The translations under genes were made by a program, and so were the position numbers. The notes beneath the pieces are model-generated. The model was not told the DNA's origin and did not search any database. It was given only the letters and a program-made list of their open reading frames with translations. A stretch of DNA of 64,000 bases, from assembly GCA_023663185.1 (NCBI GenBank), contig JAMPHY010000010.1, positions 62,001-126,000 of the forward strand. The letters run 5' to 3'. Source of the DNA: Clostridiales bacterium. Lineage in GTDB: Bacteria > Bacillota > Clostridia > Lachnospirales > Lachnospiraceae. This document shows, piece by piece, positions 2,762 to 13,386 of the stretch (positions are counted from its first letter, which is position 1; each line of letters begins with the position of its first letter).

Positions 2762-2789
2762 AAAAATACCTCCATGCGTATACTTATTG

Positions 2790-2820
2790 TATTGTATGCG
2801 GCACGGAGGGGAGATATGAC
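2790..2820 (-). promoter_or_regulatory. Sigma-E (mother-cell) promoter of sipL
   Basis: On the minus strand GTCATAT (2820-2814) is separated by 15 nt from CATACAAT (2798-2791). This closely matches the sigma-E consensus (ATATT-like -35, CATACA-T -10). The predicted start lies about 22 nt before the GTG codon, leaving room for the GGAGG site. Confidence 0.65.
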
Positions 2821-2867
2821 AAGTGGGATTTGTATATTTTTCACATCTTATATGATATCACGATTTT

Positions 2868-2972
2868 TTAGTTTATATCATCTTCTTTACGATAGTAGTA
2901 ATGGTCTGTATCTTTGTATAATTCCCAACCATCTCTATCGCAAAATCTCTTTAGTTCTTTCCATCTTTGCAT
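2868..2972 (-). pseudogene. Truncated toxin remnant downstream of Phd-like antitoxin
   Basis: A 34-codon frame, too short for routine ORF calling, starts at ATG 2972 inside the antitoxin 3' end (22-nt overlap). It reads MQRWKELKRFCDRDGWELYK and ends soon after DTDHYYYRKEDDIN. The pattern L-K-x-F-C-x-x-x-G-W-E-L then H-x-x-Y-R resembles the first strand and helix of HicA-like or similar small RNA-targeting toxins, judged by eye. A full toxin would need 30-60 more residues, which I do not find in any frame. The overlapping order antitoxin then toxin supports a decayed toxin-antitoxin pair. It could instead be an intact micro-protein. Confidence 0.45.
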
Positions 2973-3376
2973 TGTATCATATCTCCTATTGTTTCCGGAT
3001 TATCAATAATCAAAGCTTTAAAGACATAGGGCATATGCGCCTTGCGATTAGGGCTATGTGCATATAACTGATACTCGTTATAATACTCAAGAGCATATTC
3101 CAAAATGGACTGCGCTAAATTTAAACGAGCTTCTTTTTCATTCTTACCGTTTTCCACCAAATCCATTTCATTAAGTGAAAGCGTAATGGAACCATCATCT
3201 TCCACATATTTTTGAGCAGTATAGTGGTATGCTTCCAAAATTTCTATCATAGTTTCTAAATTTGAAAACCACATTTTATCCCGTGTGCGCTTAATGAATT
3301 TAGGCTTTTCATGGATAACACTGTCACAAATGGTACTCCATTCTTTCCTTACAGTTGTAGCTTGTTCCATAATCAT
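2951..3376 (-). CDS. Phd/YefM-like antitoxin with C-terminal extension
   Basis: Residues near the N-terminus (ATTVRKEWSTICDSV, PKFIKRTRDKMWFS, then a helix) follow the Phd/YefM pattern of a helix, a beta-hairpin and a Val/Leu strand used for DNA binding. About 85 further residues (acidic, helical) are unusual for the 80-90-aa family. A GTG start is possible at 3421, but a consensus promoter overlaps that region. I therefore prefer ATG 3376, behind GGGAG with 9-nt spacing (ATG 3385 is the alternative). It would repress its own promoter and neutralise the toxin encoded downstream, but that toxin is truncated here, so this may be an orphan antitoxin. Confidence 0.65.
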   Translation of the reverse strand: MIMEQATTVRKEWSTICDSVIHEKPKFIKRTRDKMWFSNLETMIEILEAYHYTAQKYVEDDGSITLSLNEMDLVENGKNEKEARLNLAQSILEYALEYYNEYQLYAHSPNRKAHMPYVFKALIIDNPETIGDMIQCKDGKN

Positions 3377-3401
3377 ATCAATCATCTCCCTATTTACCTC
3401 C

Positions 3402-3429
3402 ATTATAGCAAAAACGTACACAATGTCAA
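3402..3429 (-). promoter_or_regulatory. Consensus sigma-A promoter of the antitoxin gene
   Basis: On the minus strand a perfect TTGACA (3429-3424) and a perfect TATAAT (3407-3402) are separated by 16 nt. Transcription should start near 3395, so start codons upstream of that point are excluded. Confidence 0.75.
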
Positions 3430-3442
3430 CTATGTACGTTTT
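3411..3442. promoter_or_regulatory. Palindromic operator bracketing the antitoxin -35 box
   Basis: A perfect 10-bp inverted repeat, AAAACGTACA (3411-3420) and TGTACGTTTT (3433-3442), is separated by 12 bp that contain the -35 hexamer. A protein bound to both arms would block RNA polymerase, as expected for an autoregulated antitoxin. Confidence 0.6.
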
Positions 3443-3459
3443 ATTATATGGAGATTTCT

Positions 3460-3476
3460 TGGAAATATGCTATGTT
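3460..3476. repeat. 17-bp direct repeat, left copy
   Basis: TGGAAATATGCTATGTT is repeated exactly, in the same orientation, at 8597-8613. The two copies enclose the XRE/dynamin/zinc-ribbon block. This copy lies upstream of the antitoxin promoter and just past the 3' end of the XRE gene. Confidence 0.7.
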
Positions 3477-3508
3477 TAGAAACGATTCATTTTTTAGCGC
3501 AATGCACA

Positions 3509-3778
3509 TTAATGATTTGGTAATTCCGAACCATATACAAGCGGCGGAAAAAATGACTCAATAGACGTGCCTAAGACAGAGGCAAGACCAAATAACTCAA
3601 TGTCAGTCACGGTACGTGAACCGTCCTCGATACGTGAAATAGAGCCACGACATACATATATAGCTAGAGTTTCAAGTCTTATAGATAATTCTCTTTGACT
3701 GTATTTCCTTTTTTTCCTGAAATATCGAACCTGCTCGCCAACAATATTGTTTTTCTCTCCATCTATAATTCTAGGCAT
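3509..3778 (-). CDS. XRE-family transcriptional regulator
   Basis: The 89-aa protein consists almost entirely of one Cro/cI-type helix-turn-helix (about residues 12-68; SQRELSIRLE ... RGSISRIEDGSR ... ELFGLASVLG). I chose ATG 3778 (MPRIIDG) because TGGAG lies 8 nt upstream; a GTG at 3793 in the same frame is less likely. It is transcribed away from the dynamin-like operon. Two copies of a 17-bp palindrome lie in the shared 170-bp intergenic region. It is therefore most likely an autorepressor that also controls that operon. Confidence 0.85.
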   Translation of the reverse strand: MPRIIDGEKNNIVGEQVRYFRKKRKYSQRELSIRLETLAIYVCRGSISRIEDGSRTVTDIELFGLASVLGTSIESFFPPLVYGSELPNH

Positions 3779-3815
3779 ATAAATCAGCTCCACTCATTTT
3801 AAATCAAAAATAAAA

Positions 3816-3832
3816 TGTCTTGTAATAAGACA
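3816..3832. promoter_or_regulatory. Operator site 1 (XRE regulator)
   Basis: TGTCTTGTAATAAGACA has 6-bp inverted arms TGTCTT/AAGACA. It lies 38 bp upstream of the XRE start codon and matches site 2 at 14 of 17 positions. Confidence 0.6.
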
Positions 3833-3864
3833 AAATGTATGGTATCATACGGTTTGAATAAGTT

Positions 3865-3881
3865 TGTCCTATAACAAGACA
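3865..3881. promoter_or_regulatory. Operator site 2 (XRE regulator)
   Basis: TGTCCTATAACAAGACA is the second copy, centred 49 bp from site 1. It sits where the promoter of the divergent GTPase operon should be, with an AT-rich TATAAA immediately after it (3885-3890). Confidence 0.6.
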
Positions 3882-3948
3882 ACTTATAAATAAAATAATT
3901 TATTCAAATAGCTGTATTAATTACAAAACTGAAACAAAGGAGCAAAAA

Positions 3949-5721
3949 ATGGAAACAAATATACTGTGCGAAAAAGAAGAAAGAGTTGCTCTGTCTAATT
4001 TATATGAAGGAATATCTGTTATACTTCAAGACAGCGATGATGAAGCCGAAAAGCAAAAAATCAAAAAAGCCATTCAAGGTATGAATTCAAATACCACATA
4101 TATAATTCTGGGAGAAGCCCAAAGCGGTAAAACCGCTATTCTCCGCTCTTTGTTTCAAGATGTCTTTGTGGCGGAAGCAAATATGTCTGGAGATATCTGC
4201 GAATACCGCTGGGGAGAGCAGGAATTTACTTCTCCAATTACCAACGGATTTCAGAAAAGGTTCCTCACAAGCGACAATATACAGGGATTATCCATTATTG
4301 ATACTAAAGGTCTAAATCAGGTCAGCCCTGATGCTCTTGCGAAAATACAGGAACTTACAGAAAATGCTAACGCCATTTTTGTGTCTTTAGACGCACAGCG
4401 CATAAACAGTATGCGACTGTGGGATTTGATAGAAAAATTTCCATCTAAAAAAATGATATTCTTTCTCACTAAATGCGACCTGCTTCAGCCGGAAGAATTA
4501 ACAAAAGCAAGAGAAAAATTAGAACAATATATGAAAGAAAGCAATATTTCCGCGCCGATATTTCCAATAAGCCTCACAGAAAATGGCAGCATTCCGGGCG
4601 CTATGTCTTTAAGCGATGCGCGTTCTTATGTAAAAGAGCAGCTAATCGGTCCTAATCCTATTCTGGACAAACAAAGGGAAAATATAGAAAAGGGCAGGCA
4701 GCTTCTTATAGAGCTGGAAAAATCCTTTGCCTCGAGGAAGAAACAATATATTTCCGACTCGGAAATTCTACGAAAGATTAACGACTCTATGGATGTCTAT
4801 GTGGCAAACCAGAAACAAACGCTTGAAGGACTAATTAAGAGACTTGAAGTAGAGATTAATACAGAAATTAATAGCTATGAAAATGAAATCATCTCTAAGA
4901 TAGATCCATACAAGATCAAGGAAAGATTTAAGAAACAGGAAGATTTTATGGACTATCTGAATATGGTAAATGAAAATTACAAAAACAGGATGAACGATTC
5001 CGTAAATCATAAGACTATGGAATCCATGAAAAAATGCCTTCACGAGCTGGAATTGATATTTAAAGATGCCGTCGGATATTTTAATACCAGGGAAAATATT
5101 CTGGAACTAAATGACAGGTTTTATGGCTCTCTTTCTAAGAGCCGAAATGAAATGGTGACGTCAACGCGGGAAGCTATCGTCTATACGGGCGAGTTATACA
5201 GAACTTTGAGCGACGCATCCGAGGAATTGTTTCTTCAAATATGGAACGCACGAGAAAAATATGATGATGCAATCAGGACACGCAGGGCAGGCGCTATCGG
5301 TGGCGGCTCCCTTACAGTGGGCGGCGGCGCTGTGGGAATTGCAATCGCCGCCGGATTTAGCGGTAGCGTAATAGGGCTTGTAGCGCTTGCCGGCATAGGG
5401 GCTATTGTGGGAGGAGTCTTGTTCAATACAATCGCTAAGTCCCTCTTTGACCCTAAAGCGGCATCAAAAATGGAAGAAACCACGCAGAAATGTATTGAAC
5501 AGTTTAAGTCGGAAGTAGAACATACCAGAACGATTATGATTGAAGAAATTACATCGCAGGTTACAAAAATTTTTGAAAAGGAACTTGCCTCTGTTGACGG
5601 CTGCTTTACGGAATTTAGAATGTCAGTCAACATAGATGAAAGAAAAATTCCCCTTCTGGAACAAAAATTACAGGAAACACAGAAACTGATACAGTACATT
5701 GATAGTTATAACAGCATATAA
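3949..5721 (+). CDS. Dynamin-like large GTPase
   Basis: The 590-aa protein has an N-terminal GTPase domain: P-loop GEAQSGKT (55-62), candidate G2 Thr/Ser near 94, DTKG (118-121) and TKCD (174-177). Long helical segments follow (about 225-440). A Gly/Ala-rich hydrophobic hairpin (about 444-495) resembles the membrane-inserting paddle of bacterial dynamin-like proteins, and a C-terminal helix ends the chain. Such proteins bind and remodel membranes in a GTP-dependent way; some have been linked to membrane repair under phage or antibiotic stress. It is first gene of a five-gene operon behind XRE operators, with RBS AAAGGAG. The family call is firm; the physiological role is unknown. Confidence 0.82.
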   Translation: METNILCEKEERVALSNLYEGISVILQDSDDEAEKQKIKKAIQGMNSNTTYIILGEAQSGKTAILRSLFQDVFVAEANMSGDICEYRWGEQEFTSPITNGFQKRFLTSDNIQGLSIIDTKGLNQVSPDALAKIQELTENANAIFVSLDAQRINSMRLWDLIEKFPSKKMIFFLTKCDLLQPEELTKAREKLEQYMKESNISAPIFPISLTENGSIPGAMSLSDARSYVKEQLIGPNPILDKQRENIEKGRQLLIELEKSFASRKKQYISDSEILRKINDSMDVYVANQKQTLEGLIKRLEVEINTEINSYENEIISKIDPYKIKERFKKQEDFMDYLNMVNENYKNRMNDSVNHKTMESMKKCLHELELIFKDAVGYFNTRENILELNDRFYGSLSKSRNEMVTSTREAIVYTGELYRTLSDASEELFLQIWNAREKYDDAIRTRRAGAIGGGSLTVGGGAVGIAIAAGFSGSVIGLVALAGIGAIVGGVLFNTIAKSLFDPKAASKMEETTQKCIEQFKSEVEHTRTIMIEEITSQVTKIFEKELASVDGCFTEFRMSVNIDERKIPLLEQKLQETQKLIQYIDSYNSI

Positions 5722-5726
5722 GAGAA

Positions 5727-7037
5727 ATGGAGAAAGCGGCAATGGGCGAAAAACAAAAAAAGACTCTGGAATGGCTTGACGAACTGGAAGAGTATGCAAA
5801 AGAGAAACAGTTGTCAATGCGGATTCTGGACAGTATTGACGAATGCAGGCAAAGCGTGGTGTCTGACAACATTGACTGGAATCAAATCAGCCTACAAATA
5901 GACGAACTGCTGGACAGTATTGGAGTAAAAGTTCTCCCCACTGTAGTAAAAATTGAAGAAAGTTATAATGAAGTATCTGTGGAGATGGTTGAAAATGAGC
6001 TGAGAAATATGGCTCAAAGATGTCACACGGAGAATGAAGCTTCTCTCAATAATATTGAGAACAGTAAAAATATTATTATACAGAATCTTTTTACAAAGCT
6101 AGAGGATATCACTCGTGCAAGTGCACATTTAGAAGAACTGAAAAACGAAAAATCTTATCAGGCATTTTTCCGGCGCATACAAACGAAATACCGCAACAAT
6201 GTTCTTGCCATAATCAGGGAATTGCTGCAAAGCGTACGCAACAACCATGTACAAATGATGGAACGTATAAGAAACATGTTTCAAGGCATTAAAGCGTACA
6301 AATACGGATTGAGCAACGAAAAGATATACAGGGAATATAATACGAAAGCTGATGAATTGTGCAATAAAGTACAAGGCGAGACGGAAAGCCTGGATATGGG
6401 AGAAAAAGAAATAGAAAATCTGGAGCACAAAACATGGGAAAATGTAAAGCTTATTGTGGAGAAAATGGAAATAGAGAAGAAAAAGCTAATACGGCGCCCG
6501 CTCACTGTAATATTATCTGTGTTGTTAGTAGGAGGATTTCTTGCCCTTTTAATAGCTGCAATTTTTAGAGCAGGATCCGGCGATAGTTCGCTTAGTGACG
6601 TAATAGAAATATTCCAGATAATAATAGAAATATTCCAGATAATAAAGGAGATAATTACGCTTTTAACAGCACAGGCGCCTGCCGCCGCACCTGCTGCCAT
6701 TCCCGGCGTTGTCGTTGTCATATTCGTCGTTCTTGTAATTGTATTGCTCTACAAACTATATGTGTTCTTATTAGGGCAATGGTGCGACCGTCAGATTTGT
6801 AATGAATGTAGCGCATATCTAAATACAGAGTTGGCAGATTTTACAAAGAATAATACGTTGCTCTTGCGCTTAAACAATATAACCGCTGGCGCCATTGAAG
6901 AATATGAACGGCAATATGGTGCAATGCTGAACGAGCTTCTGGCAGGCTCAAGTTTTGACCCTGAAAGCACAGAAAGGAAAGAGACAAATCGTTTTAACGA
7001 AATAAGGAGCAGTTGGAATACGATTAAATATCAATAA
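5727..7037 (+). CDS. Two-TM coiled-coil partner protein, unknown function
   Basis: I do not recognise the family. The 436-aa protein has a charged, helical N-terminal part (about 1-255), a TM helix (about 258-281), a short extracytoplasmic or hairpin segment with a perfect IEIFQII duplication and an Ala/Pro stretch, a second TM (about 322-350), and a helical tail. It starts 6 nt after the GTPase stop; an alternative ATG at 5742 has a better ribosome site (GGAG, 9-nt spacing). Tight coupling to a dynamin-like GTPase suggests a membrane receptor or second half of a heteromeric remodelling complex, as many bacterial dynamins act in pairs. This protein has no P-loop. Confidence 0.65.
   Translation: MEKAAMGEKQKKTLEWLDELEEYAKEKQLSMRILDSIDECRQSVVSDNIDWNQISLQIDELLDSIGVKVLPTVVKIEESYNEVSVEMVENELRNMAQRCHTENEASLNNIENSKNIIIQNLFTKLEDITRASAHLEELKNEKSYQAFFRRIQTKYRNNVLAIIRELLQSVRNNHVQMMERIRNMFQGIKAYKYGLSNEKIYREYNTKADELCNKVQGETESLDMGEKEIENLEHKTWENVKLIVEKMEIEKKKLIRRPLTVILSVLLVGGFLALLIAAIFRAGSGDSSLSDVIEIFQIIIEIFQIIKEIITLLTAQAPAAAPAAIPGVVVVIFVVLVIVLLYKLYVFLLGQWCDRQICNECSAYLNTELADFTKNNTLLLRLNNITAGAIEEYERQYGAMLNELLAGSSFDPESTERKETNRFNEIRSSWNTIKYQ
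6601..6642 (+). repeat. Perfect 21-bp tandem duplication inside the TM-protein gene
   Basis: Two exact copies of TAATAGAAATATTCCAGATA plus A stand head to tail at 6601-6621 and 6622-6642. They keep the frame and add one IEIFQII heptad between the two TM helices. Confidence 0.85.
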
Positions 7038-7049
7038 AAGGAGACCAAA

Positions 7050-7625
7050 ATGGATAATTTATTAGACAAAGTAAAAAAAGTAAAGATACCAGACGCTATA
7101 CATATAGCGCCCAAATCCACTTCGAATATGAGCGTTGATTTAAAAGCTATGAAAAAAGAATTGGAAAATAAAATGAACGAGAAGGTAAAAATATACGGTT
7201 TCATCGGTATGGAAGTTTATGACCTTTCAAAAGCAGGCAGGATTAATATACCGGAAATTACAAGCTATCTTGAAAAAATGGATGGGATAAGTGCAGTGGT
7301 ATCTGAACTTGAGAAAAATATAGCGGTGCAGGAAGCTAAAATTGCAGGTAAAAATATCTGTTCCTGTGGTTTCCAGTTAAAGCCTCAGGACAGATTTTGT
7401 CCTAACTGCGGCGAAGCAGTTCCCAAAAATACAATCTTATGTACCTGCGGCACAGAATTGGATAAAAACTGTAGATTCTGTACCACTTGCGGAAAGAAGA
7501 TAGAAGACCTCATAAACAATAAAAAAGAGCCCATACAACAGACCGTTATGAGAGAATGCATCTGCGGTGCAAAGGTGCCGGAAGGACAGTTTATGTGTAT
7601 GGAGTGCGGAAGAAAGGTGGAGTAG
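7050..7625 (+). CDS. Zinc-ribbon protein with three CxC/CxxC modules
   Basis: The 191-aa protein has a Lys-rich helical N-terminal half. From about residue 103 it carries three zinc-ribbon modules: CSCG...CPNCG, CTCG...CTTCG and CICG...CMECG, the double-zinc-ribbon type. Each pairs a CxC knuckle with a CxxC knuckle. Such modules usually mediate protein-protein or nucleic-acid contacts rather than catalysis. No membrane segment is seen, so it is likely a cytoplasmic adaptor for the GTPase/TM-protein pair encoded just upstream (12-nt gap, RBS AAAGGAG). Its function is not known. Confidence 0.72.
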   Translation: MDNLLDKVKKVKIPDAIHIAPKSTSNMSVDLKAMKKELENKMNEKVKIYGFIGMEVYDLSKAGRINIPEITSYLEKMDGISAVVSELEKNIAVQEAKIAGKNICSCGFQLKPQDRFCPNCGEAVPKNTILCTCGTELDKNCRFCTTCGKKIEDLINNKKEPIQQTVMRECICGAKVPEGQFMCMECGRKVE

Positions 7626-7628
7626 GTT

Positions 7629-8039
7629 ATGCGTAAAAACACTTATGAAATGATTCCCATTAATAAACCGATTGAAAATGACAAGCTATTGGAAAATGTA
7701 GTAATTTATTTATATTCACGCCTTAAAGAATGTCAAATAGAGACAAATGTTGAAGGCAATACCTATACAATTTTAGCCTCACCTAAACTAAGGTTTAGTA
7801 AAAAAACAAGTAAAACGGTATATCTTACACTTCAAATGATAATACATAAAGATTCTTGCAGCGTACATTTTTCAACCTCGAAAGTAAAGCCTAATATGAA
7901 TTTCGCGATTGCGGTATGTATGGCTCCGATTTCATTGCCTGTATCAGGAGTTATGCTGGGTTCAGGACTTTTGCGTTTATGGAACCACAAAATTTTTCAG
8001 GATGACGTTATAAAATATATACGCACTTATGTAAGCTAA
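7629..8039 (+). CDS. Small protein of unknown function with a hydrophobic C-terminal segment
   Basis: The 136-aa protein is not a family I recognise. It has an N-terminal helix, a beta-rich centre (YTILASPKLRFS ... TVYLTLQMII ... CSVHFSTSKV) and a hydrophobic stretch at about 94-118 (FAIAVCMAPISLPVSGVM), followed by a short polar tail. It begins 3 nt after the zinc-ribbon gene stop, so translation is probably coupled and the protein belongs to the same system. Weak membrane association is plausible. Confidence 0.6.
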   Translation: MRKNTYEMIPINKPIENDKLLENVVIYLYSRLKECQIETNVEGNTYTILASPKLRFSKKTSKTVYLTLQMIIHKDSCSVHFSTSKVKPNMNFAIAVCMAPISLPVSGVMLGSGLLRLWNHKIFQDDVIKYIRTYVS

Positions 8040-8089
8040 AATTGGCACTGAATAAATTTAGAAATAACTAGGAAAGAGAGGAAAAATAA

Positions 8090-8467
8090 ATGTACTGTGG
8101 AAACTGTGGTGAACTACTCAATGATAATGCAACAATATGCACAAAATGCGGTTGTATGATAAAGCCAAAAGCAAAAGTTTTGGATTTGTCAAGCTTATCG
8201 CCTTATTATCAACAGGAGTTTCAGAAAATATATGATTCAGGAGAAACATATAAAGGCAAGTTTAATATATGTGCATTTCTTTTTAGTCCAATATGGGCAT
8301 TGGCAAAAGGCTGTTACTTATCTGCCATTGCGAATTTTGCTATAAATTTTGTAGGAGTTTCGCTTACATTCGGGATAGCAGCCATAGCTTGGGACATCTT
8401 CTATGGTTTCAAGGGTACATATGTATATTATTGCTCATATACAAAGGACGAAAAGCGCGTTATATAG
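8090..8467 (+). CDS. Zinc-ribbon membrane protein (DUF2628-like)
   Basis: The 125-aa protein opens with a zinc ribbon (CGNCG at 3-7, CTKCG at 17-21). After a linker and amphipathic helix come two or three hydrophobic segments (about 65-112), with the FNICAFLFSPIWALAKG signature of DUF2628-type membrane proteins. It is the last gene of the dynamin-like operon (50-nt gap, RBS AAAGAGAGG). Together with the preceding zinc-ribbon protein, the operon contributes two zinc ribbons on opposite types of scaffold, one soluble and one membrane-bound. The function is unknown. Confidence 0.7.
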   Translation: MYCGNCGELLNDNATICTKCGCMIKPKAKVLDLSSLSPYYQQEFQKIYDSGETYKGKFNICAFLFSPIWALAKGCYLSAIANFAINFVGVSLTFGIAAIAWDIFYGFKGTYVYYCSYTKDEKRVI

Positions 8468-8479
8468 ATAATAGGCAGC

Positions 8480-8515
8480 GGCGGACATAAGAATCGTAAA
8501 TAACTTACGTCCGCC
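8480..8515 (+). terminator. Stem-loop after the dynamin-like operon
   Basis: GGCGGACATAAG (8480-8491) pairs with CTTACGTCCGCC (8504-8515), a 12-bp stem with one wobble, 13 nt past the last stop. No T-run follows on either strand, so it may be an RNA-stabilising hairpin or a weak terminator. Confidence 0.4.
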
Positions 8516-8597
8516 TCTGAAAAGCATATTTTACCATCTTTGTCTCATTATGCCCGATGTTTATTACAACCTCTTTTTCATTCTTGCCGTTTCCCAT
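8505..8597 (-). pseudogene. Remnant of a second Phd-like antitoxin
   Basis: A 30-codon frame starting at 8597 encodes MGNGKNEKEVVIN. Its first 29 nt match the antitoxin region 3157-3129 (VENGKNEKEARL) at about 24 positions, and then similarity stops. No ribosome site precedes it. It abuts the right copy of the 17-bp direct repeat. It is best read as debris from a duplicated toxin-antitoxin locus. Confidence 0.4.
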
Positions 8598-8613
8598 GGA
8601 AATATGCTATGTT
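8597..8613. repeat. 17-bp direct repeat, right copy
   Basis: This is an exact copy of 3460-3476 in the same orientation, 5.1 kb away. It lies between the antitoxin remnant and the 3' end of the following minus-strand gene. Confidence 0.7.
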
Positions 8614-8618
8614 AGTTA

Positions 8619-9566
8619 TTATTGTTCAAATACTTGCAACAGCTTATCCTTTTTAATCCACACGCATCGCCCGCTGCGGATTATACTGCCGTAATCTTCC
8701 TGCCACGGTTCAATATAAATAAAAGTTTTCTTTCCCGTTTCCAATTCCTCTACATACCAACCGGTTCCGACACTCTCCCACCGCTCATACATCTGATTCC
8801 ATTTATCCATCTTATCGAGAGTCTCTTTGCTTGCCCAATCATGACATAAATCAAACAGAACTTCATTTCCTGTACAGTATGCCAGATACTTACCATCAGG
8901 TGAAAAAGTCGTGCCGTACATAAATTCTCCCAGTTTCTTTAATTCACCGTCAGGATAACTCATCAGATATGTAGTGTCTCCACTGGAAAACACAAGCCAG
9001 CCAATCTCTTCATTTCCTTTTATCTGTGATACCTCAATCGGCCAGTCAGTGTCTATGCAAGCCGCCATTTCTATATGATGTAGCTCTTCTCCAGTATCCA
9101 CGCTGTATATTCCGATACTCTTATTATCCGGCGCGGCAACTGCTAACAAGTTTCCATACTCATCAATTGCGCTTGCAATCTGCGCCCATGCCTCCCAGAA
9201 GGCATCCGCTCTCCATCCGCGCGCTTCCCGGATAATCTTTTCCCACTTCTCTATTTTTTCTTCTTCCATTTGTTCATATATCTCGCTGTCTTCTTTTCTT
9301 TGCATTGCAAAAAGAGCGATGTCATCTCCCTCATATCCCTTTTTCTGTTCCAGCTCCGTACCCTGATAATATATTCTGTCTGTATATATTACGTTCATGT
9401 AATTATTTTGTCTGGAAATAACCCATTCCAAATCAGGCGAAATATACCGTTTCTCCTTCCTGAGTCGTCCTGACAAAATCACCGTAAATGCCATAGCGGT
9501 AATAATCCAGAGTAACCCCATAATCCAGATGTGTCTCCAGAAGCATGCAGTAATCCATCTTTGCAA
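8619..9566 (-). CDS. C-terminal part of a frameshifted secreted beta-propeller-like protein
   Basis: The open frame could code for 315 aa, but the first ~47 residues read as an out-of-frame shadow of the upstream fragment (9433-9702). Meaningful sequence starts near SPDLEWVISRQ. The remainder has Trp/Gly strands and a TFSPDGKYLAY motif typical of PD40/WD40-like repeats, with no catalytic signature. Joining the fragments needs a single +1 shift near 9433-9440, giving one exported protein of about 355 aa. ATG 9566 has no good ribosome site. It may be a pseudogene, a sequencing error or, less likely, recoded. Confidence 0.5.
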   Translation of the reverse strand: MQRWITACFWRHIWIMGLLWIITAMAFTVILSGRLRKEKRYISPDLEWVISRQNNYMNVIYTDRIYYQGTELEQKKGYEGDDIALFAMQRKEDSEIYEQMEEEKIEKWEKIIREARGWRADAFWEAWAQIASAIDEYGNLLAVAAPDNKSIGIYSVDTGEELHHIEMAACIDTDWPIEVSQIKGNEEIGWLVFSSGDTTYLMSYPDGELKKLGEFMYGTTFSPDGKYLAYCTGNEVLFDLCHDWASKETLDKMDKWNQMYERWESVGTGWYVEELETGKKTFIYIEPWQEDYGSIIRSGRCVWIKKDKLLQVFEQ

Positions 9567-9702
9567 ATCCGTTAAATAAGGGGGTGGTATTTTCTTCTAT
9601 TTGTTCTCCCTCACTTGCTTCCACCTGAATAACAGATAATATTACCGCCAATGCTATCCATATGATTCCTTTATTCATACAAAACAGCCTTCTCAATTTC
9701 AT
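9433..9702 (-). CDS. N-terminal part of the frameshifted secreted protein (signal peptide)
   Basis: The 89-codon frame has a strong ribosome site (GAGGAG) and a clear signal peptide (basic start, IIWIALAVILSVIQVEA, cleavage near residue 30). It then runs to a TGA at GCC-TGA, where the +1 frame continues as DLEWVISRQ of the next fragment. On its own it is too short to form a domain. A leader with a promoter (9852-9880) and an intrinsic terminator (9778-9814) lies upstream. Confidence 0.5.
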   Translation of the reverse strand: MKLRRLFCMNKGIIWIALAVILSVIQVEASEGEQIEENTTPLFNGFAKMDYCMLLETHLDYGVTLDYYRYGIYGDFVRTTQEGETVYFA

Positions 9703-9777
9703 CGCAAATCTCCTCTACTCTCATGTCGTCTATATATAAATATCATTTTAAATATTTGCTGCTTTTACTTTCTGCTT

Positions 9778-9814
9778 TAAAAAAAACCGGGAGAACAGAC
9801 TAATTCTCTCGGTT
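9778..9814 (-). terminator. Intrinsic terminator in the leader of the 9702 gene
   Basis: On the minus strand an 11-bp stem (9814-9804 with 9795-9785, one wobble) is followed by eight T. No minus-strand gene lies between it and the plus-strand ABC gene, so it sits in a leader rather than after a gene. Confidence 0.65.
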
Positions 9815-9851
9815 GCCTTATACAGTAATTTATGGGTACACTTCATTATGT

Positions 9852-9880
9852 AGTTTAGCATAAAAAAAATAAAAAGTCTA
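9852..9880 (-). promoter_or_regulatory. Possible promoter of the attenuated leader
   Basis: On the minus strand TAGACT (9880-9875), 17 nt, then TAAACT (9857-9852) preceded by TGC (extended -10). Transcription would start about 30 nt before the intrinsic terminator. Confidence 0.4.
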
Positions 9881-9967
9881 CTCTTTTCCCTTTTTTTCTG
9901 TTAATTTATTATTACAGCTTATCACTGTTAAAAAACGGTTTATATTGTAAGAGAGGGGGAAGTTATT

Positions 9968-10792
9968 TTGATAGAATTTAAAGATGTCTGCAAAAGCTAT
10001 CGGGTGGCGAAGCGCGGTTCAGGACTTGGCGATACGGTAAAGTCCCTTTTTAAAAGGGAATATAGCACAATTAATGCCATTAACCATTTAAGTTTTACTG
10101 TAGACGACGACGAAATGGTAGGCTATATCGGTCCGAACGGAGCAGGTAAAAGTTCCACGATAAAGATTTTAAGCGGAATATTGACTCCGGACAGCGGAAC
10201 ATGTCTGGTAAACGGTCAGATACCGTGGAAAGACAGAAAAGAATATGTACGGCAGATAGGCGTTGTTTTCGGGCAGCGTTCGCAATTATGGTGGGACATT
10301 CCCGTTATTGATTCATTTGAACTATTGCAGGCAATTTATTCCATTCCTGCGCCGAGATATCGCAATCAATTAGATGAACTTACCCAGCTTTTACATCTAG
10401 AAGATATATTAAAAACGCCGACCAGACAGTTATCACTCGGTCAGCGTATGCGCTGCGAAATTGCCGCGTCACTACTGCATGAGCCGAAACTGCTTTTTCT
10501 GGACGAGCCGACCATTGGGCTTGACGCAGTATCCAAAATCGCAGTCCGAAGCTTTATAAAGAAGCTGAACGAAGAACATAAAACCACGGTAATCCTGACG
10601 ACACATGATATGCAAGATATTAAAGCCATTACTAAGCGCATAATTTTGATTGGCAGAGGTCAGAAGCTTATGGACGGCACGCTGGAAGATATATACCTTG
10701 AGTCCGATGCTACGGGTATAGAAAATGAAAATTACGAAATGGACATTGACCAGATTATTGCCAAACTTTACGCCAAACTAAACATCATGTAG
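9968..10792 (+). CDS. ABC-2 type exporter, ATP-binding subunit
   Basis: The 274-aa protein is a single nucleotide-binding domain: Walker A GPNGAGKSS (about 58-66), signature LSLGQRMR, Walker B LLFLDEPTIGLD and H-loop TTHD. The N-terminal insertion before the first strand (GSGLGDTVKSLFKREYST) and the Q-loop FGQRSQLWWD are typical of exporters paired with PF06182-type permeases. The start is TTG at 9968 with GAGGGGGA upstream. It is first of a three-gene operon encoding a complete exporter (one ATPase, two different permeases). The substrate is unknown; drugs, lipids and polysaccharides are all possible. Confidence 0.85.
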   Translation: MIEFKDVCKSYRVAKRGSGLGDTVKSLFKREYSTINAINHLSFTVDDDEMVGYIGPNGAGKSSTIKILSGILTPDSGTCLVNGQIPWKDRKEYVRQIGVVFGQRSQLWWDIPVIDSFELLQAIYSIPAPRYRNQLDELTQLLHLEDILKTPTRQLSLGQRMRCEIAASLLHEPKLLFLDEPTIGLDAVSKIAVRSFIKKLNEEHKTTVILTTHDMQDIKAITKRIILIGRGQKLMDGTLEDIYLESDATGIENENYEMDIDQIIAKLYAKLNIM

Positions 10793-10801
10793 GAGGATAT
10801 C

Positions 10802-11605
10802 ATGAAAAAATACTACTATTTTTTTAAGCTAAGATTCTCCACTGGTATACAATATCGTATGGCGTCTGTCACCGCTTTGACGACGCAGCTTATCTGGGGA
10901 TTGATGGAGTGTCTGGCTTACAAAGCGATTGCAGAAGCTTCCTACGGCAATATGCCGATGGACTATTCTTCCATTGTTACATATATCTGGCTCAAAGAGG
11001 CTATGCTGGTGCTTTTTAATACATGGGCGTCGGACAATGAACTTTTTAACCTGATAATAAACGGAGATATTGCATATGAATTATGCCGTCCGCTATCGCT
11101 ATATTCCATGTGGTTTTCAAGAATAAGCGGCGCCAGAATATCGGAAGCGCTTATGCGTTGTATCCCTGTATTATTATGTGCATTCCTGATGCCTAAAGCC
11201 TATAGAATGACTCTCCCGGTCAATAGTGCTTCGTTTGTGTTGTTCCTTCTAACTTTGTTTTTAGGGCTTGGAATCACAGTCGCATTTTGTATGCTCGTCT
11301 ATATACTGTGCTTTTTTACGATTTCGCCGCAGGGTTTAAGAATGGTAATGACGGGAGCAGTTGACTTTTTATCGGGAAACATTATTCCACTGCCGTTTTT
11401 CCCGCAAAAATATTTGTTCCTATTGGAGCTTACTCCATTCGCCTATATGCAGAACGTTCCGTTTAGAATCTACAGCGGAGCGCTTTCAGGTGCGGAAATG
11501 TATATGTGTATATTAAAACAGATTTTCTGGCTGTCGGCATTAACGTTTCTTGGCATTATCATATGGAAGCAGGCTGAAAAAAGGGTTGTAATACAAGGCG
11601 GTTGA
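10802..11605 (+). CDS. ABC-2 family permease, subunit 1
   Basis: The 267-aa integral membrane protein has about six TM helices and no extracytoplasmic domain, consistent with the ABC-2 / PF06182 (DUF990) permease family. It begins 9 nt after the ATPase stop behind AGGAGG. The pattern LIWGLMECLAYKAI ... LINGDIAYELCRPLSLY, with a conserved polar coupling loop after TM2, also appears in the next gene (RKGEFDRMMLRPCSLI). The two are therefore paralogous halves of one heterodimeric channel. Confidence 0.8.
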   Translation: MKKYYYFFKLRFSTGIQYRMASVTALTTQLIWGLMECLAYKAIAEASYGNMPMDYSSIVTYIWLKEAMLVLFNTWASDNELFNLIINGDIAYELCRPLSLYSMWFSRISGARISEALMRCIPVLLCAFLMPKAYRMTLPVNSASFVLFLLTLFLGLGITVAFCMLVYILCFFTISPQGLRMVMTGAVDFLSGNIIPLPFFPQKYLFLLELTPFAYMQNVPFRIYSGALSGAEMYMCILKQIFWLSALTFLGIIIWKQAEKRVVIQGG

Positions 11606-11642
11606 GCAAAAACTTCAAGTTAGACGGAAATGGAGAGTTATT

Positions 11643-12437
11643 ATGAAAATTATGGAAAATTTGAAATTATACCTTAAATACGCCTCTGTCTGCACGCAGA
11701 GCGTAATGCAATACAAGCTGTCATTTTTATTAATGGTTATTGCGCGTTTTATTATATCGTTTTGTGAACTCATCGCAATTAAATTCTTATTCGCGGGATT
11801 TAGTCAGCTAAAAGGCTACACCTACGGCGATGTTTTGCTGTGTTTTTCCCTTATCCAGATGTCTTTCACCTTTTCCGAACTGTTTGGCAATGGATTCAAG
11901 GTATTTTCATTCATTGTGCGAAAAGGTGAATTTGACCGCATGATGTTAAGACCATGCAGTTTAATTCTTCAAGTTATAGGAAGCCGATTTGAAGTAGGAA
12001 GAACCGGACCGCTGCTGACTGCGGTTGTGACACTGTTTCTGGGTATCAAATACAGCAATATAGAATTGAATATGGTGACAATTTTGACAATGGCTTCCAT
12101 GATTATCGGCGGTACTTTACTATTTATAGGTCTGTTCATGCTGGGGGCAAGTTTTTGTTTCTTTTCCATCGAAGATACTTCATTGATTAACGTGCTTACT
12201 TATGGGGCGAAAACCCACGGCAAATATCCGCTGGATATCTACGGAACGGGAATAATGCGGTTCTGCACTTACATTATTCCGTATACGTTCATTCAGTACT
12301 ACCCTTTGCAATTTCTATTGGGGAAAACGGCTGATTGGCGTCTTGCCTTTTATCCGTTTGGAATTGTTGTGTTTCTGCTTATATGCTATTTTATATGGCG
12401 GTTCGGGGTAAGGCATTATAAGTCCTGCGGCTCGTAA
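11643..12437 (+). CDS. ABC-2 family permease, subunit 2
   Basis: The 264-aa permease has about six TM helices and is paralogous to the preceding gene. The coupling loop FIVRKGEFDRMMLRPCSL matches the position of the one in subunit 1. RBS GGAGAG; 37-nt gap to the upstream gene. With the ATPase and subunit 1 it completes an exporter. It converges on pyrD, and the short intergenic region carries only the pyr operon terminator. Confidence 0.8.
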   Translation: MKIMENLKLYLKYASVCTQSVMQYKLSFLLMVIARFIISFCELIAIKFLFAGFSQLKGYTYGDVLLCFSLIQMSFTFSELFGNGFKVFSFIVRKGEFDRMMLRPCSLILQVIGSRFEVGRTGPLLTAVVTLFLGIKYSNIELNMVTILTMASMIIGGTLLFIGLFMLGASFCFFSIEDTSLINVLTYGAKTHGKYPLDIYGTGIMRFCTYIIPYTFIQYYPLQFLLGKTADWRLAFYPFGIVVFLLICYFIWRFGVRHYKSCGS

Positions 12438-12478
12438 TAATATCAATAACAACTCAGTCCACCGGCAGAATAAAATGA

Positions 12479-12496
12479 GGCGGTCACTCTACCGCC
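12479..12496 (-). terminator. Terminator of the pyrimidine operon overlapping the pyrD stop
   Basis: GGCGGT (12479-12484) pairs with ACCGCC (12491-12496). The stem contains the pyrD stop codon and is followed on the minus strand by TCATTTTATT. It is a short stem, so strength is uncertain. Confidence 0.5.
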
Positions 12497-13386
12497 CCTA
12501 TAAGTTCGTTAATATCTTCTATTCTATTGCAACGCATATACTCTTCAATGCCCTCGATAACTTCTATCGTTGTATACGGATTGACGAAGTTCATCGCTCC
12601 GACTGCCACCGCAGACGCGCCTGCGAGGATAAACTCAATGGCGTCTTCCGCCGTACCAATACCGCCCATGCCTATAATGGGAATTTTAACCGCGTGCGCC
12701 GCCTGATATACCATTCTGACCGCTATCGGTTTTATCGCCGGTCCCGACATGCCGCCGGTTTTGTTGGCAAGCACGAACTTTCTCTTATGAATATCTATTT
12801 TCATACCCGTTATGGTATTTATCAGCGAAAGCGCGTCCGCGCCTGCTGCCTCTGCCGCCTTAGCCATCTCCGCAATATCGGTTACATTGGGACTGAGCTT
12901 CATAATTATCGGCTGTTTTGCATATCTTTTTATCTGCGCTGTAATGTCATACAGGCAGTCCGCCTTTTGTCCAAACGCTATGGCGCCTTCCTTTACATTC
13001 GGACAGGATACATTTATTTCCAATAAGTCCACGGGTTCGTCCGAAAGTCGTTCCACTACTTCAATATAGTCTTCTACCGTCTTGCCGCACACGTTCACTA
13101 TCACGCGGGTATCGTAATTTTTCAGAAAAGGAATATCCCTTTCCACAAATACATCTATACCGGGGTTTTGCAGACCGATAGCGTTCAACATTCCCCCGTA
13201 TACCTCCGCCACGCGCGGCGTGGGATTGCCCTGCCACGGCACATTGGCGACGCCTTTGGTAACTACCGCTCCCAGCCTGTTTAAATCCACAAAATCACTG
13301 TATTCCATACCGGAGCCGAATGTGCCTGACGCCGTCATAACCGGATTTTTAAGCGTAACTCCTGCAATCTCAACCTTAGTATTCAT
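12484..13386 (-). CDS. pyrD: Dihydroorotate dehydrogenase B, catalytic subunit
   Basis: The 300-aa FMN TIM-barrel enzyme oxidises dihydroorotate to orotate in pyrimidine synthesis. Visible signatures are NPVMTASGTFGSG, the active-site segment NVSCPNVKEG with the class 1 catalytic Cys, MKLSPNVTDI, and the FMN-phosphate loop IIGMGGIGTAEDA with AVGAMNF. Length matches class 1B enzymes, which use NAD+ through PyrK. It overlaps the upstream pyrK by TGATG (translational coupling) and is the last gene of pyrC-pyrK-pyrD. Confidence 0.95.
   Translation of the reverse strand: MNTKVEIAGVTLKNPVMTASGTFGSGMEYSDFVDLNRLGAVVTKGVANVPWQGNPTPRVAEVYGGMLNAIGLQNPGIDVFVERDIPFLKNYDTRVIVNVCGKTVEDYIEVVERLSDEPVDLLEINVSCPNVKEGAIAFGQKADCLYDITAQIKRYAKQPIIMKLSPNVTDIAEMAKAAEAAGADALSLINTITGMKIDIHKRKFVLANKTGGMSGPAIKPIAVRMVYQAAHAVKIPIIGMGGIGTAEDAIEFILAGASAVAVGAMNFVNPYTTIEVIEGIEEYMRCNRIEDINELIGAVE

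Follow-up and report, generated by a model that had tools for sequence, protein, structure and literature searches.

Does the row of five genes headed by a dynamin-like GTPase in a Clostridiales bacterium form a single system, and what might such a system do? The locus lies within a stretch of 64,000 nucleotides from a member of the Lachnospiraceae (GenBank assembly GCA_023663185.1, contig JAMPHY010000010.1, positions 62,001 to 126,000; hereafter the window). An initial annotation had described it as a co-transcribed five-gene system behind a dedicated repressor, in an accessory block next to a toxin-antitoxin remnant. The list of open reading frames (ORFs) bears out the positions, order and strand of the five genes and of the repressor-type gene (Table 1). 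Comparison with other genomes revealed that, by sequence, three of them, encoding the GTPase, a partner with two transmembrane (TM) segments and a multi-zinc-ribbon protein, travel together as a core.

A core of three genes

Homologues of the GTPase were sought in genome samples that partly overlap: 77 from the genus, 397 from the family, 392 from the order, 291 from the class and 398 from the phylum. With the window's own genome included each time, they were present in 8 genus, 2 family, 4 order and 1 phylum genomes. At the class level, 13 of the 291 genomes gave matches at 1e-6; because the matches in the 12 others were confined to profile positions 17–224, the G domain, these were counted as other GTPases and rejected as family members. 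One locus, L012, was added from a collection of genome contigs, and L013 was left out as an apparent repeat of the G018 contig, so that 13 distinct loci selected by gene 1 were compared (the window, L012, L015–L022, L027, L028 and L029).

In all 13 loci, a GTPase-family gene, a partner gene and a zinc-ribbon gene are adjacent on one strand. The GTPase is 50–61% identical to that of the window in eight loci and 24–30% identical in four. Pairwise distances of the three core proteins correlate across the 13 loci (r 0.91–0.97), a value that common host descent alone would also raise. The zinc-ribbon protein of the core had been annotated as a triple zinc-ribbon protein and has three ribbons by sequence; zinc ribbons pass the Pfam cut-offs (Zn_Ribbon_1 1.7e-9, DZR 1.4e-8), and the proteins of L028 and L029 have fewer than three.

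The initial annotation had treated all five genes as one system, and their co-occurrence held for the three-gene core and failed for the remaining two. For the 136-amino acid (aa) protein, no credible relative turned up in the 76 remaining genus genomes, and a DUF2628 gene adjoins the core in one of the nine loci searched (L015; an 81-aa ORF), L027–L029 lying outside that search. A match to the 136-aa protein in genome G042 (E 5e-4) ran across 8 stop codons and was discarded. The zinc ribbon/DUF2628 protein is encoded in a single copy in its own genome, and its DUF2628 passes the Pfam cut-off (25 vs 23 bits).

In the converse search, a profile of the partner identified 11 of the 77 genus genomes, which were the same 8 together with G037, G035 and G032. 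In these three the partner survives without the GTPase and zinc-ribbon genes (loci L103, L104 and L105), and in G037 and G035 the partner frame has a GTPase stalk stub of approximately 51 residues fused to it (L103, L104). The three copies look like decayed cassettes.

The GTPase and its partner

By its sequence, gene 1 of the window encodes a GTPase with a P-loop that belongs with the bacterial dynamins. Its motifs G1 (GEAQSGKT), G3 (DTKG) and G4 (TKCD) fit GxxxxGK[ST], DxxG and [TN]KxD, and they are retained in seven genus relatives and in L012, with G1 of L016 partly unread (N). Departures include GRT in L021 and L027 and QKSD in L028, and gene 1 of L029 (9569–10684, minus strand) has no G domain. 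The protein is made up of a G domain (residues ~45–235), a putative stalk, a Gly-rich hydrophobic stretch between conserved parts (457–496; Kyte-Doolittle scan) and a C-terminal part. A Gly/Ala-rich hydrophobic region is much longer in the GTPases of L018, L019 and L020, and its length varies among these close relatives.

The annotation of gene 1 as dynamin-like was upheld by a route other than a Pfam scan of the window protein, which at E up to 1 gave no match to Dynamin_N (PF00350) and had GTP_EFTU, below cut-off, as its best match; the Dynamin_N scores of gene 1 in L021 and L027 were also below cut-off. We use the name dynamin because of a PADLOC match to LeoBC (8.2e-12 over 242–576, the region after the G domain) and because gene 1 of L028, from another family of the same order, bridges the family to Dynamin_N. 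Against Dynamin_N, L028 gene 1 scores 64.1 bits, above the cut-off of 27; it also matches PADLOC LeoA end to end (1–580) and aligns with the Lachnospiraceae GTPase family over 544 columns (hhalign 2.3e-48). The window GTPase also matches LeoA (3.9e-6). A search of the PDB gave one weak match, and a profile search of the PDB with the GTPase chiefly gave G-domain matches to many kinds of GTPase, including mitofusin FZO1 and OPA1.

The closest profiled relatives are LeoA and LeoBC, encoded by leoABC of enterotoxigenic Escherichia coli (ETEC) H10407, the window GTPase matching LeoBC and L028 gene 1 matching LeoA. In LeoABC, a dynamin-like GTPase with a glycine-rich paddle is encoded beside a second, rearranged dynamin (LeoB plus LeoC), and the two are thought to form a heteromer (PMC4159319). 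The window cassette differs in its partner, which carries two TM segments and lacks a recognised G domain (one genome has a degenerate version), and in the zinc-ribbon gene that follows. A vesicle release or secretion factor like LeoABC might be expected from this kinship, as leo deletions roughly halve vesicle cargo, but the effect was seen on vesicles carrying OmpA and Tat-GFP (PMC4159319). We consider such a role improbable for the cassette. Lachnospiraceae are not known to have an outer membrane, which also argues against it.

The partner had been annotated as a two-TM protein, in agreement with its two strong hydrophobic segments at residues 261–279 and 323–341; a weaker stretch lies at 288–313 (Kyte-Doolittle scan), and the L021 partner has one segment above the same threshold. 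The window partner belongs to no PADLOC family, its three Pfam matches are all below cut-off with none to a GTPase domain, and its profile matched nothing in the PDB below E 0.4. A possible origin is indicated by gene 2 of L028, which encodes 581 aa and joins a degenerate G-domain-like region to partner homology (238–549; hhalign 1.4e-9). The G-domain profile gave its first 235 residues 11.5 bits, more than any of the 4758 shuffles that received a score out of 5000 made (maximum 10.5), and with L028 gene 1 removed from the profile the region scored 9.9 bits, above all 4630 scored shuffles. Most of the score comes from profile positions 115–217, and by eye the region keeps neither the P-loop nor the switch motifs. 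Eleven of the 12 other partner proteins gave a score, at most 7.2 bits. When the GTPase and partner are aligned directly, the alignment runs out immediately ahead of the hydrophobic segment of each protein. In its own family, L028 gene 2 was found in 1 of 48 genomes, which was its own.

Because L028 gene 2 combines these two regions, the partner is possibly a former dynamin; the evidence of this one genome suggests that it descends from a second dynamin whose G domain was lost. The family ranges from a degenerate partner G domain (L028) through a partner with none (window) to a pair in which neither protein has one (L029), which would let the role of the second G domain be tested.

Bacterial dynamins are for the most part encoded in pairs (PMC6104087). 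In Campylobacter jejuni, the products of the neighbouring dynamin genes Cj-DLP1 and Cj-DLP2 form a heterotetramer; both of those partners are full dynamins, and a zinc-ribbon protein is not mentioned in the passages of PMC6104087 consulted. Bacillus subtilis DynA, in which two dynamin halves are joined in one chain (PMC6104087, PMC4159319), carries out membrane surveillance against antibiotics and delays phage lysis (PMC8844932). It resembles the window GTPase as a bacterial dynamin and differs in being a single fused protein. DynA is not known to be a repressed accessory cassette.

Dynamins are also a listed defence type; DefenseFinder has the types Dynamins and Eleos, both described as often occurring in couples (PMC11811056). 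Compared with these types by description, the cassette shares their dynamin-like genes; it has no second intact GTPase and has an extra zinc-ribbon gene. Two dynamin GTPases side by side, the arrangement of LeoABC and Eleos, were not found in the window cassette with PADLOC or Pfam. We file the cassette as a variant of tandem bacterial dynamins of the LeoABC kind, its three-gene set being new to the literature searched. As the initial annotation had supposed, no named system with this exact gene set was found among the open-licence papers listed, judged partly from titles and the beginnings of abstracts. No paper came up on a combination of dynamin and zinc ribbon, and among the papers listed none dealt with dynamins in Clostridia or Lachnospiraceae or with Eleos itself.

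Accessory status, regulation and possible function

The description of the block as accessory is supported by an empty site in G036, a close relative (SipL 96% and PyrD 97% identical). Its contig L061 follows the window as far as 3473 and again from 8597, with 14 bases of L061 common to both matches. G036 has a single copy of a 17-bp repeat there, with 2 mismatches (L061 9266–9282), where the window has two copies, so that the window is longer by approximately 5.1 kb. The difference could represent either an insertion in the window or a deletion in G036, and the repeat might have arisen by target duplication, be the site of a recombinase or mark the scar of a deletion. Around the core of seven other loci (L012, L015, L016, L018, L019, L020 and L022), a search for direct repeats of at least 11 bp found none above 13 bp, which we take as chance; the 17-bp repeat is therefore not a general boundary. 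The GC content of the insert (37.6%) differs slightly from that of its flanks (40.0 and 42.9%). G036 has a cassette on another contig, and since its GTPase is 50% identical to that of the window, against 96% for SipL, replacement or separate gain is indicated rather than plain descent.

The interval between SipL and PyrD extends from 2762 to 12483 in the window and is only 86–164 bp in five relatives (G056, G050, G020, G027 and G035). Other genes occupy it in G036 and G039, in the latter nucleotidyltransferase- and APH-family genes. A second site was observed after pyrC, where G018 and G007 have the cassette; pyrC and pyrK/pyrD are ~9 kb apart in G018 vs ~0.2–0.5 kb in the window and in five relatives (L061, L064, L065, L066 and L068; blastn), where this site is unoccupied. 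Flank gene names other than SipL and PyrD are presumed from ORF starts viewed by eye. Presence and absence at given chromosomal sites is plain from these comparisons, and the cassette appears to have spread horizontally.

The proposed repressor fits a divergent HTH_3 regulator gene with two mutually similar 17-bp inverted repeats, candidate operators, between it and the GTPase gene. The search pattern was built from these two repeats, which match it perfectly by construction; no third perfect match occurs elsewhere in the genome. When up to 3 mismatches are allowed, both strands of the window together give 10 matches, where 1.0 would be expected, and four of the 10 fall at the two sites. A divergent HTH-type gene is directly upstream in 9 of the 13 loci (window, L012, L015–L020 and L022; L020 by eye), and the L028 locus starts too close to a contig end to show one. 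Pfam scans of these regulators identified HTH_3 in the window and L012 and HTH_26 in L022, and the others were grouped by eye. The five loci of the L022 group (L015, L018, L019, L020 and L022) have in common a palindrome, GCCCGATATCGGGC, which by eye sits between promoter-like hexamers.

That at least two Pfam HTH types (HTH_3 and HTH_26) precede the same core suggests that silence is selected. Together with the decayed copies in three genomes, this would suit an abortive-infection effector, in which the derepressed complex would itself kill the cell by damaging its membrane. We think this quite unlikely, as no toxin domain was detected in Pfam, NCBIfam or PADLOC scans, no immunity gene was recognised, and the dynamin precedents protect membranes.

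We hypothesize instead that the cassette protects the membrane under attack, a reading that we favour tentatively while stopping short of calling it probable. It is favoured because of the patchy spread, the presence or absence at given sites, the repressor-type gene, and the kinship to dynamins that are listed among defence genes (PMC11811056) or delay phage lysis (PMC8844932). The repressor would keep the cassette off, leaving a three-protein set that is normally silent. The partner would be a resident membrane anchor that, having lost its own G domain, fills the role which a second dynamin has in tandem pairs. The GTPase would dock on it through the stalk and hydrophobic stretch and remodel or seal the inner membrane, with the zinc-ribbon protein bridging or sensing. 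Membrane attack, most likely phage lysis, or else bacteriocins or antimicrobial peptides, would lead to derepression, and the complex thus switched on would protect the cell or population. Rather doubtful in our view is the broader proposal of a mobile class of immune dynamins, each with one GTPase, an anchored dynamin-derived subunit without a G domain and a zinc-ribbon bridge, in which active, pseudo-GTPase and GTPase-free forms coexist. Should the cassette prove protective against phage or bacteriocins, Lachnospiraceae and their kin would have a new defence system with a zinc-ribbon component, one carried by a few gut bacteria.

A general envelope-stress or membrane-repair module, like DynA under antibiotics or the Psp type, would be induced by chemical damage rather than by phage. 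A dynamin is known to guard the membrane against antibiotics (PMC8844932), the ydjFGHL / Psp-type operons of B. subtilis combine zinc-ribbon proteins with membrane-stress partners in an operon with pspA (PMC11237479), and the flanks of the cassette are not defence islands by eye. Those operons differ in being based on PspA/band-7, and the word dynamin occurs 0 times in the main text of PMC11237479. Housekeeping repair would be expected to be widespread, whereas the cassette is present in 8 of 77 genus and 2 of 397 family genomes (own included), is missing from the corresponding site of a close relative and is decayed elsewhere; we regard this module as somewhat unlikely.

Several observations weigh against protection of the membrane by a repressed, mobile dynamin cassette. 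Searches of 50,697 phage and 72,556 plasmid records gave no match to the core family, and none was confirmed in viral contigs, where a pattern pre-filter limited the reach of the search. L028 gene 1 matched 11 plasmid records, annotated as dynamins or GTPases, at 23–36% identity with none covering 80%; L028 gene 2 had no plasmid match. Most loci are flanked by housekeeping genes as judged by eye, and the enrichment in defence islands that had been considered at annotation was not seen in this visual inspection. No repressor-type gene adjoins the GTPase in L021, L027 and L029 (ORFs of at least 60 aa), and across the genome the operator pattern with up to 2 mismatches gave 10 matches vs 8 for a reversed control. 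In G037, G035 and G032, tblastn across 14.5–19.5 kb around the partner detected neither a complete GTPase nor a zinc-ribbon gene belonging to the family. The P-loop lysine is replaced by arginine in L021 and L027, and as L029 has no G domain at all, some members may be able to do without GTP hydrolysis. As to the descent of the partner, the degenerate G domain is known from one genome (L028), its P-loop half contributes only 0.6 bits, and the whole of L028 gene 2 matches the GTPase family at an hhalign probability of 1.1%. Direct stalk homology between GTPase and partner is also weak (hhalign probability 16%, E 0.0016).

Features of the locus and neighbouring genes

The five plus-strand genes are separated by gaps of 5, 12, 3 and 50 bp, and this spacing suggests that they are co-transcribed, as had been annotated. 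By eye, purine-rich stretches precede the starts.

Table 1. Coordinates of the cassette genes, putative operators and flanking repeats in the window
Feature	Position	Strand	Length and remarks
Dynamin-like GTPase, core gene 1	3949-5721	+	590 aa
Two-TM partner, core gene 2	5727-7037	+	436 aa; recognised G domain absent
Zinc-ribbon protein, core gene 3	7050-7625	+	191 aa; N-terminal conserved part, then three zinc ribbons
Small passenger protein	7629-8039	+	136 aa
Zinc ribbon + DUF2628 membrane protein, optional passenger	8090-8467	+	125 aa
XRE/Cro-type putative repressor, divergent	3509-3793	-	94 aa; Pfam HTH_3 26.5 bits vs cut-off 23
Putative operator 1, inverted repeat TGTCTTGTAATAAGACA	3816-3832	.	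17 bp; sequence pattern
Putative operator 2, inverted repeat TGTCCTATAACAAGACA	3865-3881	.	17 bp; sequence pattern
Left 17-bp direct repeat TGGAAATATGCTATGTT, edge of accessory block	3460-3476	.	exact repeat with 8597-8613
Right 17-bp direct repeat, edge of accessory block	8597-8613	.	exact repeat with 3460-3476

The toxin-antitoxin remnant reported beside the operon was recovered at 2881–3421, outside the 17-bp repeats. Its PHD_like antitoxin is whole (2951–3421; Pfam) and its HicA-like toxin gene partial, the homology to the G036 gene ending ~30 codons in. Both ORFs are complete in G036 (L061 8559–9226), where the HicA-like gene encodes 72 aa and scores 20.5 bits with HicA_toxin, below the cut-off of 27. 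Among the flanks, L020 is an exception, with type I methyltransferase and specificity genes upstream of its cassette (6312–8185) and, on the downstream side, a nucleotidyltransferase gene (12729–13019) that matches PADLOC PDC-S09; the PADLOC scan of neighbours covered nine proteins of L020 and L061. HicB/HicA-like genes were observed by eye downstream of L029 gene 1. Beyond the right repeat of the window, a WD40/PD40-like gene (8619–9702) is broken into two ORFs, and its counterpart in G036 is one 392-aa ORF with 91 more bases (blastn offsets).

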